From NCBI RefSeq assembly GCF_021654165.1, contig NZ_JAKFZN010000002.1, positions 301,001 to 365,000 on the forward strand: a stretch of DNA of 64,000 nt, read 5' to 3'. Source of the stretch: Nereida sp. MMG025 (lineage in GTDB: Bacteria > Pseudomonadota > Alphaproteobacteria > Rhodobacterales > Rhodobacteraceae). Under the pieces are notes generated by a model. That model saw nothing but the letters and a program-made list of their open reading frames with translations. It ran no database searches and was not told the origin of the DNA. Positions within the stretch are counted from its first letter, which is position 1; every line of letters starts with the position of its first letter. Of this stretch, positions 26,875-62,474 are shown piece by piece. A program made the position numbers and the translations under genes.

Positions 26875-28027
26875 CTGGCAAAATGCAGGCTTCGGTCTTT
26901 ATATCCACTGGCCTTTTTGCAGCGCGAAATGTCCTTATTGCGACTTCAATTCCTATGTAGCTGATCACATCGATGAGGACAGATGGGTCCGCGCTTATAT
27001 CCGTGAGATTGAGCGAATTGCATCGCAGACGTCTGATCGCATTCTGAAATCCGTTTTTTTCGGCGGCGGGACACCGAGCCTGATGTCGGAAAATGCAGTT
27101 GGCGCTATTCTAGAGGCTGTCGGAAAGAACTGGCGCTTCACCAACGATATTGAAATCACGTTGGAGGCGAATCCAACTTCTGTGGAGGCGTCTCGTTTCG
27201 AAGGATATCGCGCTGCGGGCGTGAACCGTGTGTCGCTTGGAATACAGGCGCTGAATGATCCAGACCTCAAGCGTTTGGGGCGCCTTCATTCCGTCGCTGA
27301 AGGGCTTGCAGCGCTTGAAATTGCGAAAAAGACCTTTGAGCGAACCAGCTTTGATCTGATTTATAGCAGGCAAGATCAGACGCTCGCGGATTGGGAAACT
27401 GAATTACGTGTCGCGTTGGATTTGGCGGGGGATCATCTGTCGATGTATCAACTGACCATCGAGCCGAATACAGCCTTTGGAGACAGATATAAGGCAGGCA
27501 AACTAAAGGGTTTACCGTCGGAAGATGCCGAAGCTGATATGTATTTTCGAACTCAGGAATTGTGCGCTGATCGCGGTCTTTGTTCGTATGAAGTCTCTAA
27601 CTTTGCCCAAAAGGGTGCAGAAAGCCGTCACAACCTGATTTACTGGCGATATGGCGACTATGCCGGAATTGGGCCGGGCGCCCATGGGCGGCTCACACTT
27701 GGCGGGCACCGGTTTGCCACGGAAACAGAGCTTTCACCGATGGGGTGGCTGACAAAGGTCGAAAAAAACGGATCAGGAGAGGTCGCACGCTCCTCTTTGT
27801 CAAAACAGGAACAAGGCACGGAGTTTCTATTGATGGGCCTTCGGTTGGCGGAAGGCGTTTCATTGGATCGTTATAGCCACCTAACAGGCAGTGCAATATC
27901 GCCGTCAGTGATCGAGAACCTCAGCGAATTGGGCATGGTTCGTCTCGAAAACGGCATTTTGCAAGTGTCTGAAAAAGGGCGCCCACTTATCAATGCAATC
28001 CTACGCGATCTTCTTGCCGATCAGTAG
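26864..28027 (+). CDS. hemW: Radical SAM heme chaperone HemW
   Basis: 387 aa radical SAM protein related to oxygen-independent coproporphyrinogen oxidase but, as HemW, involved in heme trafficking. The 4Fe-4S motif is CSAKCPYC (C-x3-C-x2-C) near residue 19; FGGGTPSLM and DLIYSRQDQT follow. HemW rather than HemN is judged from length and the CSAKCPYC variant. The last 7 bases overlap the 3' end of convergent parB. Confidence 0.92.
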   Translation: MQDDWQNAGFGLYIHWPFCSAKCPYCDFNSYVADHIDEDRWVRAYIREIERIASQTSDRILKSVFFGGGTPSLMSENAVGAILEAVGKNWRFTNDIEITLEANPTSVEASRFEGYRAAGVNRVSLGIQALNDPDLKRLGRLHSVAEGLAALEIAKKTFERTSFDLIYSRQDQTLADWETELRVALDLAGDHLSMYQLTIEPNTAFGDRYKAGKLKGLPSEDAEADMYFRTQELCADRGLCSYEVSNFAQKGAESRHNLIYWRYGDYAGIGPGAHGRLTLGGHRFATETELSPMGWLTKVEKNGSGEVARSSLSKQEQGTEFLLMGLRLAEGVSLDRYSHLTGSAISPSVIENLSELGMVRLENGILQVSEKGRPLINAILRDLLADQ

Positions 28028-28908
28028 CCAGACAGAAGCCTGCACAGATCATCTAATTGATCGAGATCTTTATATCCGATCGAAAGCGTCCCGCCCTCAT
28101 GACCGGGTGCATGGGAAATTGACACCTTCATCTTAAGTTGCGCAGAGAGATCGCCCTCTAGTGCCTTGGTATCAGCATCTTTCTCAGGCGCTTTCCCTTT
28201 AGACTTGGATGTCTGGCCAGACGCCTTTTCCTTTGCAACCAATGCCTCGGTCTGACGGACATTGAGTGCGTGCCCTATCACCTGCTTTGCAACACCAAGA
28301 GGATCTTCGGCTGGTATTAGTGCGCGTGCATGTCCTGCGGTAAGTTTCCCCTCGCGCAAATACTTGAGCACAGGTTCGGGCAATTGGAGCAAACGCAGGA
28401 TGTTTGCAATGTGACTGCGGCTTTTGCCCATAGCGGTTGCCATCTGCTCTTGGGTGTGACCGAAGCTATCCATCAGTTGACGATAACCCAATGCTTCTTC
28501 AACGGGATTGAGATCAGCGCGCTGAATGTTCTCGATGATCGCCAGCTCTAGAACTTCGGTATCGGAAAGGTCCCGCACGACGACGGGAAGGCTGTGCATT
28601 TTCGCGATTTGAGCAGCACGCCAGCGCCGCTCACCTGCAACGATTTGAAACTTATTGCCACCATTTGGCGAAGGCCGCACGATAAGCGGCTGGATGATCC
28701 CCTTTTGGCGGATTGAGTCGGAAAGTTCACGTAACTCATTGTCATTAAACGTTTTTCTGGGTTGATTGGGATTTGCTTCAATAAGCTCCGTTGGGATATG
28801 CCGCTCGGCCACTGCGGGCGCTGCATCGGTCTCGGGGGACGGCACATCAGACATCAAAGCGGAAAGGCCACGGCCAAGACCGCGAGATTTGGGAGGTTGC
28901 TTAGCCAT
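28021..28908 (-). CDS. parB: Chromosome partitioning protein ParB
   Basis: Binds parS and spreads as a CTP-dependent clamp, acting with ParA to segregate origins. 295 aa. MAKQPPKSRGLGRGLSALM start, GERRWRAAQIAKM (CTP/arginine-patch motif) and the helix-turn-helix around GKSRSHIANILRLL and LTAGHARALI. A Lys-rich linker (ASGQTSKSKGKAPEKD) precedes the dimerisation domain. Overlaps parA by 8 bases. Two parS sites lie upstream in the same operon. Confidence 0.97.
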   Translation of the reverse strand: MAKQPPKSRGLGRGLSALMSDVPSPETDAAPAVAERHIPTELIEANPNQPRKTFNDNELRELSDSIRQKGIIQPLIVRPSPNGGNKFQIVAGERRWRAAQIAKMHSLPVVVRDLSDTEVLELAIIENIQRADLNPVEEALGYRQLMDSFGHTQEQMATAMGKSRSHIANILRLLQLPEPVLKYLREGKLTAGHARALIPAEDPLGVAKQVIGHALNVRQTEALVAKEKASGQTSKSKGKAPEKDADTKALEGDLSAQLKMKVSISHAPGHEGGTLSIGYKDLDQLDDLCRLLSGY

Positions 28909-29692
28909 GAGTCGTTACCTTTTCCTGCTTTTCGAGAAATTCTTTTGCCAATTGACGATAGGCGCGCGTGCCTTTGGACTTGGGGTCATATTCCAAAACG
29001 GGCATGGCAAAGGATGGCGCCTCGCTCACCCGAACGTTTCGGGGGACGATCGTTTTGTAGACCAATTCGCCCAACACGTTGCGCGCATCTGCTTCAACCT
29101 GTTGGGCGAGGTTATTGCGCACATCATGCATGGTCATAACAATCCCCTCGATCCGAAGGTCAGGGTTTGCCGATTCTCGCACTTCGCGGATTGTTTTCAT
29201 CAGTTGCGATAGACCTTCGAGCGCGAAAAATTCACTTTGTAGCGGAACAAGAATGCTATGGGCTGCGACCATTGCATTTACGGTCAGCAAATTCAGCGAT
29301 GGAGGGCAATCAATAATGATGTAATCATACTGTGAAGTCGCGGCAGCAGGACCGCGCAAGGCATCCCGCAAGAGAAAGCTGCGTTTTTCGTTGGCGATAA
29401 GATCGATGTCAGCAGAGCTTAGATCAGTTGTAGCAGGAACGACCTCTATCCCCTCGAAACTGGTTAATTTCGTCGCTTCCCGCAGCGGCACCTCGCTGAG
29501 CAATACGTCATATATTGTCAAATCATCGTCAGATTTCTCTAGTCCTAGTCCAGTCGTCGCATTCCCCTGGGGATCCAGGTCAATCAAAAGGACGGTGCGG
29601 CCCAATTCTGCCAAACCGGCTGACAGGTTTATCGCGGTCGTGGTTTTCCCAACGCCACCTTTTTGGTTCGCAACTGCGATTGTTTTGGTCAT
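28901..29692 (-). CDS. parA: Chromosome partitioning ATPase ParA
   Basis: Nucleoid-bound ATPase that pulls ParB-parS complexes. 263 aa. Deviant Walker A KGGVGKTTT at residues 11-19 and Walker B-like IIIDCPPSL. No N-terminal HTH, so this is the chromosomal (Soj-like) class. ATGA overlap with rsmG. Confidence 0.97.
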   Translation of the reverse strand: MTKTIAVANQKGGVGKTTTAINLSAGLAELGRTVLLIDLDPQGNATTGLGLEKSDDDLTIYDVLLSEVPLREATKLTSFEGIEVVPATTDLSSADIDLIANEKRSFLLRDALRGPAAATSQYDYIIIDCPPSLNLLTVNAMVAAHSILVPLQSEFFALEGLSQLMKTIREVRESANPDLRIEGIVMTMHDVRNNLAQQVEADARNVLGELVYKTIVPRNVRVSEAPSFAMPVLEYDPKSKGTRAYRQLAKEFLEKQEKVTTHG

Positions 29693-30297
29693 TGAACTGC
29701 GTCAGCCTCTGATTTCATTTTTAAGTCTGTTATAATCAATATGCGAGCAGATGTATTGGTAGAGCTAGACCTTTTTTCACATTGGAATGCCCATTTCTCC
29801 TCAGCTTCGTCAATTTCGAATTGATATCTTTCGCCTTTGGGAAAGATCGCACGACTACCCCGATGACCATGTATAGATGTCCACTCAAGAAGCTGAGAAA
29901 GGGATGCGGTTGCCCGGGCAGTGATAACATCTGATGCCACTGGGTTAGCTGATTCAACACGTTCTGTGATAACCTGCCCGTTCAAACCGAGCTCTCTTAT
30001 GCATGTGCGAAGAAACGCCGACTTTCTGTGATCGCTTTCGATAAGGGTGAATGAAAGCTCGGGCTGATGTGCCTTTGCGTAAATCGCGAGAACAATAGCG
30101 GGGAGGCCACCGCCACTGCCAAAATCAACAAGTGACCTTGCATCTTCGGGAATAGAAGCGGCCAGCTGATAGGAATCCAGAATGTGACGCGTCCAGATAT
30201 CCTGTCCTTTGGACACCAGATTGATTTTAGAATTCCATTTCTCGATCAAGGCCTCATAGGTTTTGAGGCCTTCCAATGTTTCACGTGAAACATCCAT
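29689..30297 (-). CDS. rsmG: 16S rRNA (guanine527-N7)-methyltransferase RsmG
   Basis: SAM-dependent methyltransferase (GidB), 202 aa. SAM motif LVDFGSGGGLPAIVLAI. ATG 30297 forms TGATG with the mnmG stop and has GGAAG eight bases upstream; a TTG one codon earlier is less likely. Codons 2-7 (DVSRET) are encoded by a perfect parS site. Confidence 0.96.
   Translation of the reverse strand: MDVSRETLEGLKTYEALIEKWNSKINLVSKGQDIWTRHILDSYQLAASIPEDARSLVDFGSGGGLPAIVLAIYAKAHQPELSFTLIESDHRKSAFLRTCIRELGLNGQVITERVESANPVASDVITARATASLSQLLEWTSIHGHRGSRAIFPKGERYQFEIDEAEEKWAFQCEKRSSSTNTSARILIITDLKMKSEADAVQ
30277..30292. other. parS site 1 (inside rsmG)
   Basis: Exact match to the canonical 16-base palindrome TGTTTCACGTGAAACA, the ParB binding site. 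It lies in codons 2-7 of rsmG, about 4.5 kb left of the proposed origin. Confidence 0.96.
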
Positions 30298-32156
30298 CAA
30301 GCAGACTTCCGTTTTTTTGTTTTAGAAACGGCAATCAAAATGGCGAGGCACGCTGGAGTCATGCCATCAATTCGGGCAGCTTTGGCGATATTCTCAGGTT
30401 TCGACGCGTTCAGCTTCTGCTTCATCTCGTTTGAAACACCTTGCAAGGCGTCATAATCGAAGTCTTTCCCAAGGACCATTGCCTCATCACGCTCAATAGC
30501 CTCGGCATCTTTCGTCTGCCGCGCCATATAATTCGCGTATAGAGCTTCTTTCTCAAGCTGAATGCGATCATCTATCGCAATACTGGACAAATCCGGAACC
30601 AGTGGCTCTATATCCGCGAAACTAATTTTTTGATGGGAGAGTAGCTCAAACGGTGTGCGCTTTACGCCATCTTTATTCCGGTGGATCCCAACCTTAGAAA
30701 GATCTTGCGGTGAAAAGCTGCGTGATTGCAAGAGCTTGCGCCCCGCATCCAGCCGCGCCATCTTTTGCTCAAACGCCTCCTTACGATTGGCGGAAACACA
30801 ACCGAGGTCGATTCCCAAAGCGGTCAGCCGTTGATCCGCATTATCAATCCGCAATGATAGCCGAAATTCAGCCCGAGATGTAAACATCCGATACGGCTCC
30901 ATCACACCCCGTGTTGTCAGATCATCTATCATGACACCAATGTAAGACGTTCTGCGGCTAAATAAGACCTCGTCTTTCCGTTGCGATTGAAGCGCGGCAT
31001 TCAAACCCGCAACCAATCCCTGCGCAGCAGCTTCTTCATATCCCGTCGTCCCATTGATCTGACCAGCCAAGAAAACACCGCTTTGTTCTTTTAACTCAAG
31101 AGTTTGCCGAAGCGCCCTTGGATCCACATAGTCATACTCAATCGCGTAGCCCGGCTGAAGAATGACCGCCTTCTCAAGCCCTTTGATCGAATGGACGTAA
31201 TCCTCCTGAACTTCAATCGGCAAAGACGTGGAGATACCATTTGGATAAATCCAATCTGTGCTCAGGCTCTCTGGCTCCAGGAAAATCTGATGGGAGTTCT
31301 TATCCGCAAATCGAACAATTTTATCTTCGATCGATGGACAATACCGCGGACCAATACCATCTATATGGCCGCCATACATGGCCGATCTAGACAGATTTTT
31401 CTCAATTATTTCATGGGTTTGCGTATTCGTATGCGTGATAGCACAAGAAACTTGTCCGGCCTCGGTTTGGTTGGAAAGGAAGGAAAAAAAGGTCGGCGCA
31501 TCATCACCGGGCTGAACGTCAAGATCATCGAAATTTATCGTTCGCCGGTCGAGGCGTGGCGGTGTCCCTGTTTTGAGCCGGCCAAGAGGCAGACCAAATG
31601 CCTTGAATTGCTCAGCAAGCCTGCAGGACGCATTCTCGCCCATTCGACCACCTGAGTGGGACACATCGCCAACATGTATTTTACCGTTAAGGAAAGTGCC
31701 CGTTGTGACAACAACGGCACGCCCTGCAATATGCGATCCGTCCGCTAGAATGACACCGTTGATCACCCCGCCCGCATAGGCCAAAGCAGCGACTTCGCCT
31801 TCTAAAATGTCAAGATTTGGGGTGTTAGCCAACTCATCTTGCATAATTTGCCGATAGATGGCGCGGTCAACTTGCGCACGGGGGCCTTGGACAGCTGGCC
31901 CTTTACTACGATTTAACAAACGAAACTGAATACCAGCACGGTCCGACAGCCTGCCAATGATGCCATCCAACGCATCAATCTCGCGAACGAGGTGGCCCTT
32001 ACCCAGTCCACCCATAGCAGGATTGCAGGATAAAGCGCCAAGGTCATTTCTTGACATGGTAATCAATGCCGTGCGCGCGCCCAAACGCGATGATGCAGCC
32101 GCGGCTTCAGCACCCGCATGACCACCCCCAATAACGATGACATCAAATTGTTTCAC
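30297..32156 (-). CDS. mnmG: tRNA uridine-5-carboxymethylaminomethyl synthase subunit MnmG
   Basis: FAD-binding partner of MnmE that modifies U34 of tRNA. 619 aa from GTG 32156. Dinucleotide motif [10 protein letters not shown] at the N-terminus, [23 protein letters not shown], and [21 protein letters not shown] choose GTG 32156 (MKQFDVIV) because AGGAG sits exactly 8 bases upstream; GTG 32165 (MFHVKQF) overlaps that Shine-Dalgarno. Either way the start region lies within a parS palindrome. Eleven bases from mnmE. Confidence 0.95.
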
Positions 32157-32164
32157 GTGAAACA
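32149..32164. other. parS site 2 (at the mnmG start codon)
   Basis: Second exact TGTTTCACGTGAAACA. The preferred mnmG start codon (GTG 32156-32154) is the central GTG of this palindrome, and the Shine-Dalgarno AGGAG directly abuts it. Confidence 0.96.
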
Positions 32165-33484: not shown

Positions 33485-34756
33485 TTAGGTGTTCATGGAA
33501 TCAAAGAACTCGGAGTTTGTTTTTGTTTGCTTGAGTTTCGACAGCAGGAATTCGATCGCATCTGTCGTCCCCATGGGGTTAAGGATCCGCCGCAACACAT
33601 AGGTCTTTTGCAAATCAATCTTATCGACCAACAAATCTTCCTTACGCGTCCCGGACTTCAGAATATCCATGGCAGGGAACACCCGCTTATCGGCAACCTT
33701 GCGATCCAGAACAATCTCGGAGTTGCCGGTGCCTTTGAATTCTTCAAAGATCACCTCATCCATCCGTGATCCAGTGTCGATCAGCGCAGTGGCAATAATC
33801 GTAAGTGATCCGCCCTCTTCGATATTTCGTGCCGCACCAAAGAACCGCTTGGGCCGTTGAAGCGCGTTGGCATCCACACCACCTGTCAGCACCTTGCCCG
33901 AAGATGGCACAACCGTATTAAAAGCACGTCCCAAGCGGGTGATCGAATCCAACAAGATCACAACATCCCGTTTATGTTCCACCAAGCGCTTGGCCTTCTC
34001 AATAACCATCTCTGATACGGCCACGTGGCGTGTCGCTGGTTCATCGAAGGTCGAAGACACAACCTCGCCTTTGACCGAGCGTTGCATGTCCGTCACCTCT
34101 TCGGGTCGTTCATCAATCAGCAGCACAATCAAATAGCATTCAGGATGGTTTTTCTCGATGCTGTTGGCAATATTCTGCAAAATAACGGTTTTACCCGTAC
34201 GTGGTGGCGCCACGATGAGCGAACGTTGCCCCTTACCAATAGGCGCAACCAGGTCAATCACACGGGCCGAACGGTCTTTGATCGTCGGATCCTCGACTTC
34301 CATCTTCAAGCGTTCGTCAGGATAAAGAGGCGTCAGGTTATCAAAAGCCACCTTATGACGCGCGCGTTCTGGATCTTCGAAGTTGATCTTCTCAATCTTG
34401 GTCAGCGCAAAATAACGCTCATTGTCATCCGGCGCGCGGATCACACCCTCGATGGTATCCCCTGTTCGCAATGAAAACTGACGGATCATATCAGGCGAAA
34501 CATAGATATCATCAGGACCTGGAAGATAATTGGCCTCAGGCGAACGCAAGAAGCCAAAACCATCCTGCAGCACTTCCATCACCCCGTCGCCGCTGATTTC
34601 CCATCCATCCTCAGCACGTTCCTTGAGGATCGAGAACATCATGTCCCCTTTACGCATGGTCGAAGCGTTTTCGATCTCAAGCTCTTCCGCCATGGAAAGC
34701 AAATCTTTAGGGCTCTTGGCTTTTAGCTCAGCCAAGGTCAAACGGTCTTGTGACAT
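33485..34756 (-). CDS. rho: Transcription termination factor Rho
   Basis: Hexameric RNA helicase for factor-dependent termination, 423 aa. N-terminal Rho-N/CSD RNA-binding region, Walker [15 protein letters not shown], Walker [15 protein letters not shown], and the Q/R-loop region. ATG 34756 follows AGGAT. First gene left of the proposed origin. Its function is relevant here because convergent genes in this window lack spacer terminators. Confidence 0.97.
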
Positions 34757-35216
34757 TTTATAATCCTGACAGCGCGCGGGTAGCGAAGCTGTTTACGTCT
34801 ATGGGAAAAATTGTTCGGACGAACGCCATTCACTTACGTCCTTGTCGTGTTCGAGTCAAACGAAGCTCTTCTTAATATAATATATTAAAAAGAAAGAATG
34901 ATGATGATGTAGGTAAGCGATCAGTCTGTGGATTATTTTTTCTCCACATATTTATCCCGATATAGCGATGCAGATTTTCAGACGTTCAACCTAGAAAACA
35001 TATATTTATGAATGCGTTACCAGTTCCAAATTTCCCAGCTATTAGATCAGCAGAGACTTATCCCAAGCCAGAAAGGCCCCGAGTTATCCTTGTCCACATT
35101 GGAAAAAACCCCCAAAGACAGCTGAAAGACGCCGATAAACTCCACACATCGAATGTATTGCCCAATCGAAACTTTTTTCTCCAATAAAATCCCTTAGTCA
35201 TCCATAGGTTTTCCAC
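34757..35216. other. Proposed chromosomal replication origin (oriC)
   Basis: The only gene-free gap over 300 bases. It separates leftward rho-mnmE-mnmG-rsmG-parAB from rightward maf-aroE-coaE-dnaQ, the same genes that flank the alphaproteobacterial origin. It holds DnaA-box-like 9-mers (consensus TTATCCACA): TGTGGATTA 34927-34935 (minus strand), TTCTCCACA 34940-34948, TTGTCCACA 35090-35098 (one mismatch each), TTTTCCACA 35209-35217 (fits TTWTNCACA), and weaker TTATCCCGA 34952 and TTATCCCAA 35058. An AT-rich stretch at 34870-34900 contains a 17-base palindrome. A smaller dyad GTTCG-GA-CGAAC is at 34813-34824. The rho and maf promoters must also lie here. hemE, next to the Caulobacter origin, is absent. 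Confidence 0.78.
34872..34888. repeat. AT-only 17-base palindrome in the proposed origin
   Basis: TTAATATA-A-TATATTAA, perfect 8-base arms around one A, with no G or C. A candidate for a DNA-unwinding element or for a protein that binds TTAA half-sites. Confidence 0.7.
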
Positions 35217-35816
35217 ATGGCTCACGACCTCATCTTGGCGTCCAAATCGCAAATACGGGCGGAATTGCTCGAAAATGCGGGCCTGACAATATCGATTCTC
35301 TCGGCTCCGGTTGATGAAGATATGATCAAAGATGCACTGCTGTCTGATGGTGTTGCGCCCCGTGACATTGCCGATGCCTTGGCCGAAGCAAAAGCAAAAA
35401 GGGTTGCAACCAAGGGGCACGATGGCCTTGTTTTGGGATGCGATCAGGTTCTCGCGCTTGAGGACCAGCTTTTTTCTAAACCACAAACACCACAAGATGC
35501 CAAAGATCAGCTGCAAAGTCTCAGTGCCAAACGGCACCAACTATACTCGGCGGCCGTTCTTTATGAAGACGGCAAACCCGTCTGGCGACAGGTGTCGCGC
35601 TGCGATATGCGGATGCGACAGCTCAGTTCGGCATATATCGAAAGCTACGTCGCCCGAAATTGGGAAGATATCCGCCATTGCGTGGGGTGTTATCAGCTTG
35701 AAGCAGAAGGCGCGCGCCTCTTTTCCCAAATTCAGGGTGACTATTTTGCTGTGCTTGGCCTACCCTTGGTCGAACTTTTGTCCTTTTTGGTGCTACGCGG
35801 AGATATTGAGGGATGA
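35217..35816 (+). CDS. maf: Maf family nucleotide pyrophosphatase
   Basis: 199 aa. Hydrolyses non-canonical or UTP/dTTP-type nucleotides and has been linked to division arrest. SKSQIR (SxSxxR) at residues 9-14, DEDMIKDAL and LVLGCDQVLAL are typical. Its start codon overlaps the last base of a DnaA-box-like TTTTCCACA. First gene of maf-aroE-coaE-dnaQ, running away from the proposed origin. Confidence 0.94.
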   Translation: MAHDLILASKSQIRAELLENAGLTISILSAPVDEDMIKDALLSDGVAPRDIADALAEAKAKRVATKGHDGLVLGCDQVLALEDQLFSKPQTPQDAKDQLQSLSAKRHQLYSAAVLYEDGKPVWRQVSRCDMRMRQLSSAYIESYVARNWEDIRHCVGCYQLEAEGARLFSQIQGDYFAVLGLPLVELLSFLVLRGDIEG

Positions 35817-61775: not shown

Positions 61776-62474
61776 GTGCCAACCCTGTTGATGACCCGCC
61801 CGCAGGCGGCTTCAATGGATTTTTTGGACCGTTTGGGCGTGCAAATGAGGGTCTTGCCTCCGTCAATCACGTCGCCGCTTTTGCGTATCGCGCCTTTCGG
61901 TGAAGGCCGTGCCTTGCCGAAAGACAGCATCGCGATTTTCACATCGCGTAATGGGATAGTCTATGGTCCGAAAGGTTCTGGGCAGTTGGCCTATTGCGTG
62001 GGGGACGAGACAGCAAAGGCCGCAACGCAGGCTGGATACACAGCGATTTCGGCGCAAGGAAATGCAGAAAACCTGCTGGAACGCGTGCTGTTGGACCGCA
62101 ACCCGAACGAACATGTGCACTTCAGCGGGGCACAAACACGCGGTGACATTGTTGAACGGCTTGTTTCCCAAGGTCTCAAAGCGAGGCGAGAGGTGGTGTA
62201 TCAACAAGTGGCAGAACGCTTGAGCCGAACGGCGCAGGAATTGGTTTTTGGGCCTGAACAGACACTGATTTTGCTTTTCTCACCTATGACGGCGCGTAAT
62301 TTGCGAGATCAGATTAACAAACCGATGCCCCATACACAGGCGGTCTGTTTAAGCGATGCCATCGCACGGGAAATAACCGACCTGGGGATAGAGATCAGCG
62401 TTTCTGCACGGCCTGATGCAGATGCCCTGATCGACAGGGTGTGCCAAATTTATACAGGGTTTCCCCCGCCTTGA
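61776..62474 (+). CDS. hemD: Uroporphyrinogen-III synthase
   Basis: 232 aa from GTG 61776 ([10 protein letters not shown], a family-like start); ATG 61791 is the alternative. Sequence conservation in HemD is low; TRPQAAS at the N-terminus, [22 protein letters not shown], and the downstream hemY and mitofilin-like genes support the call. Closes the tetrapyrrole ring toward heme and bacteriochlorophyll. Confidence 0.85.

Follow-up and report, generated by a model that had tools for sequence, protein, structure and literature searches.

A gene-free gap between divergent rho and maf

The window, a 64,000-nt stretch of DNA (positions 301001–365000 of the 628-kb contig C12, from a 3.13-Mb assembly of 40 contigs), contains a 460-bp gap at 34757–35216 (putative oriC, no strand assigned) between two genes that face away from each other. 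On one side lies rho, encoding the transcription termination factor (33485–34756, − strand; NCBIfam TIGR00767), and on the other lies maf, a member of the nucleotide pyrophosphatase family (35217–35816, + strand; NCBIfam TIGR00172); gene names in the window are based on NCBIfam matches. The bounds of the gene-free gap in the original prediction are exact, with the rho reading frame starting at 34756 and maf at 35217. Its claim that this is the only long gene-free gap has had a rough check only, in which what looked like a gap of 1.2 kb where the window begins proved to be a transporter reading frame running off the edge. Relatives identified through rho, which include named loci from Marivivens, Sulfitobacter and Roseovarius, assign the source to the Rhodobacteraceae sensu lato.

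With an AT content of 59.8%, compared to 43.9% for the contig, the gap contains a likely unwinding stretch (34858–34917, no strand assigned) with 75% AT, a value reached by only 93 of the 628,486 60-mers across the contig. An AT-only near-palindrome, TTAATATAATATATTAA, is located at 34872–34888 (no strand assigned); its spacing of 9, not 7, excludes it as a CtrA site. No CtrA sites of the form TTAA-N7-TTAA were found in the gap with up to one mismatch allowed, and there was no match in it to the strict IHF consensus WATCAANNNNTTR. Searches of 34757–35216 also yielded no Rfam family and no tRNA gene.

A cluster of DnaA boxes

We counted as a DnaA box any 9-mer with one mismatch to the E. coli consensus, TTATCCACA. 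Four such boxes are present in the gap, compared to about 0.07 expected in 460 bp at the shuffled-window rate, and none of them is a perfect TTATCCACA box. Box 1 (TAATCCACA, 34927–34935, − strand) and its head-to-head partner, box 2 (TTCTCCACA, 34940–34948, + strand), form the pair predicted at 34927–34948, which is real. Box 3 (TTGTCCACA) spans 35090–35098 (+ strand), while box 4 (TTTTCCACA, 35209–35217, + strand) touches the maf start codon, its last base being the first base of maf. Several DnaA-box-like 9-mers had been proposed, and the four starting at 34927, 34940, 35090 and 35209 are confirmed. A weaker box-like site with two mismatches, AACTCCACA (35138–35146, + strand), has a TCCACA core at 35141.

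One-mismatch boxes are not enriched in the window as a whole (12 observed, 10 by chance), and therefore single boxes mean little and the cluster is the signal. Across the 628-kb contig, this gap is the sole 500-bp stretch with four near-boxes. The entire assembly has a single occurrence of the head-to-head pattern TGTGGATTA-N(0-20)-CCACA.

The gap and its boxes are conserved in Rhodobacteraceae

A DNA-level search of the family with the gap sequence matched only 12 of 149 genomes. Because the gap sequence diverges so quickly, we located the gaps of relatives by rho-anchored synteny, which biases the sample toward genomes whose rho is most similar. With rho as the anchor, maf lies opposite rho at this position in 30 genomes of the family, and nearly all Rhodobacteraceae loci that are readable on both sides retain the gap. 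Among more distant members, a few have no maf at the locus or no recognisable boxes (L182, L189, L190 and L193).

We found that the boxes are conserved along with the gap. The last 450 bp before maf in 48 Rhodobacteraceae gaps (21.6 kb in total) contain 104 one-mismatch boxes (4.8 per kb), compared to a mean of 5.6 boxes in shuffles and to 7 boxes in 60.7 kb of rho genes (0.12 per kb). A reversed box, TGTGGAT(T/A/C)A, is found 265–360 bp before maf in 40 of the 48 relatives, compared to 5% by shuffling, and box 1 of the window is this conserved box.

Gene order around the gap

The window carries the alphaproteobacterial origin block, with secB–dnaQ–coaE–aroE–maf on one side of the gap and rho–mnmE–mnmG–rsmG–parA–parB on the other. 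In other alphaproteobacteria (Caulobacterales, Rhizobiales, Sphingomonadales, Pelagibacterales and others), maf–ppsR is followed by a gap of ~260–830 bp and then by hemE–(others)–hemJ–rho. In most sampled Rhodobacteraceae, the origin is flanked by maf on one side and hemJ–rho on the other. At 16 of ~70 loci (about a quarter), including the window, maf and rho are direct neighbours of the origin, with neither hemE nor hemJ. L182 is the only Rhodobacteraceae locus sampled that keeps both ppsR and hemE; three more (L181, L196 and L198) keep hemE.

The original prediction had described a rearranged variant lacking hemE. The gene is indeed absent here and is located on another contig (C38), and no ppsR was found between the gap and maf in the window; but the absence of hemE and ppsR/COG1806 is the usual Rhodobacteraceae layout rather than a peculiar rearrangement. 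Judged from gene order, the window layout is the usual family state plus one further loss, that of hemJ, which is seen in several lineages. The loci without hemJ at the origin are scattered, comprising the window together with L052, L054, L057, L060, L067, L068, L071, L085, L090, L091, L095, L098, L184, L186 and L187; this distribution likely reflects independent losses or relocations. The only HemJ-family match in the genome (G000:C34:16296-16700, L160) scores well below the family cut-off and could represent either a diverged HemJ or a different membrane protein. The gap itself persists, though different lineages have lost the neighbouring genes hemE, ppsR and hemJ from this locus.

GC skew, parABS and the location of the origin

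The cumulative GC skew of the complete contig is V-shaped, falling over 330 kb at the left and rising over 260 kb at the right, with a broad trough at 336–363 kb of the contig that includes the gap. Averaged over 10-kb blocks, skew changes sign across the gap, from −0.057 on its left to +0.039 on its right (Mann-Whitney P-value about 6e-9). A local minimum lies at window position 35256, just beside the gap. Within this one contig of a 40-contig assembly, skew forms a clear V whose trough spans the gap; the raw minimum is 26 kb off, at window position 61801. By a step-change fit, skew turns at 362 kb, with a 95% bootstrap interval of 342–376 kb that, read literally, excludes 336 kb. Because the raw minimum lies 26 kb away within a broad trough, skew alone cannot pinpoint the gap. 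Skew becomes negative again over 600–628 kb, the right-hand end of the contig, where the sequence may be inverted, misjoined or part of an island.

Two closed relatives were also analysed. In G045, sampled around its chromosome, the rho–maf gap lies within the 133-kb interval, or 4% of the chromosome, where skew switches from negative to positive. In G123, from sampled stretches, the switch is blurred (~2.47–2.82 Mb) and possibly up to a few hundred kb from its gap at 2.456 Mb.

The partitioning genes parB and parA (28021–29692, − strand) are 5–7 kb from the gap, and two perfect copies of parS, TGTTTCACGTGAAACA, are located at the rsmG start (30277–30292) and at the mnmG start (32149–32164), both without strand; in total, parAB and parS are 2.6–7 kb from the gap. 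The sole dnaA match above the family cut-off is on the same contig, 66 kb from the gap.

If the gap merely held the divergent promoters of rho and maf, it would be AT-rich for that reason, and its box-like words would reflect chance or DnaA-regulated transcription. Divergent genes do need promoters in the gap, and its AT content is high, but sigma-70-like sites are no commoner there than in shuffles, relatives carry boxes at ~19 times the density of composition-matched shuffled gaps, and the GC skew turns at the gap. Moreover, Rhodobacteraceae gaps measure ~350–600 bp whether they adjoin hemE, hemJ or rho, a constancy across neighbours that would follow if what is preserved were the gap rather than the promoter of any one gene. 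We therefore consider a promoter-only gap very unlikely. That the true origin lies at a different point of the skew trough, such as the vicinity of window position 61801, with the rho–maf gap as an ancestral or secondary site, would agree with the skew minimum and step-change fit at 362–363 kb of the contig, but is exceedingly improbable given that no second 500-bp stretch on the contig has four near-boxes, that conservation and parS sit at the rho–maf gap, and that gene-orientation effects can move skew minima by tens of kb.

The proposal that the gap is oriC is supported by skew, box clustering, parABS proximity and family conservation. The points against it are the lack of a perfect DnaA box, the offset of the raw skew minimum and of the fitted turn, the blurring in G123 and the lack of CtrA and strict IHF sites. 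Based on this sequence evidence, the rho–maf gap is very probably the chromosomal replication origin of this Rhodobacteraceae bacterium. Its placement in an unfinished genome would fix the replication direction of neighbouring genes.

A conserved element beside box 1 and proposed initiation

A family-conserved element adjoins box 1, consisting of a purine tract followed by GATGATGATGTAGG (34887–34913, + strand). GATGATG is present at most 60 bp upstream of the reversed box in 24 of 40 relatives, compared to 0.24 expected by shuffling, and in only 1 of 42 other origin gaps, including those of three hemE-keeping Rhodobacteraceae. The purine tract with GATGATG, which together with the adjoining reversed box covers 34887–34935 of the window and is also present in relatives (L048–L098), is nearly absent from other alphaproteobacterial origins.

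Under the DnaA-trio rule (PMC8287927), a box needs three or more NAN trios no further than 16 nt away. We rejected the GATGATG tract as DnaA-trios, as its run of five NAN has a spacer of 18 nt compared to the maximum of 16; across the family, NAN runs are no commoner than in shuffles. A speculative alternative, which we regard as rather unlikely, is that Rhodobacteraceae origins have an unwinding element of their own (an A/G tract with GATGATG...TAGG beside the conserved reversed box) that DnaA would read in a manner unlike the DnaA-trio rule. As a family-wide feature, the GATGATG element offers a specific starting point for work on origin opening in alphaproteobacteria.

The location of the origin rests on sequence, while we infer DnaA binding, duplex opening and helicase loading from other bacteria. 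By this analogy, DnaA would bind the four weak boxes, beginning at conserved box 1 and its head-to-head partner, and the DnaA oligomer would grow in the direction of rho, toward the AT-rich stretch. The duplex would then open at 34858–34917, and helicase loading would set up two forks moving in opposite directions. Segregation of the duplicated origin would then fall to ParB, bound at the pair of parS sites 2.6–4.5 kb away.

Comparison with known origins

The Caulobacter crescentus origin, Cori, was mapped experimentally between hemE and COG1806 (PMC1914354). It resembles the window locus in its syntenic block, divergent genes and weak DnaA boxes, and the shared block includes maf, aroE and coaE on one side and rho, mnmE, mnmG, rsmG and parAB on the other (seen in Brevundimonas, L113). 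Unlike Cori, the window locus is without hemE, hemJ and ppsR/COG1806, and none of the Caulobacter-type features (hemE and COG1806 flanks, TTAA-N7-TTAA CtrA sites or a strict IHF site) was found at the gap. The basal unwinding system (BUS), composed of a DnaA box, a spacer and DnaA-trios, is similar in placing a box by a trinucleotide-repeat tract and an AT-rich stretch, but differs from the window in the length of the spacer to the first NAN run.

A conserved oriC adjacent to maf has been described for Rhodobacteraceae on the basis of DoriC (PMC4793288); the published oriC reports consulted for Rhodobacterales are mostly Ori-Finder predictions only. Compared to these predicted origins, the window has no hemJ between the gap and rho, while most sampled relatives do. 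Based on the published statement, it is like them (e.g. Ketogulonicigenium vulgare) in lying on the same side of maf, in its DnaA boxes and in having parAB near. Because an oriC beside maf and the Caulobacter origin have both been published, the gap counts as a known kind of origin; it is almost certainly, as judged by its position, an ordinary oriC that occupies the place of the predicted origin in its relatives.
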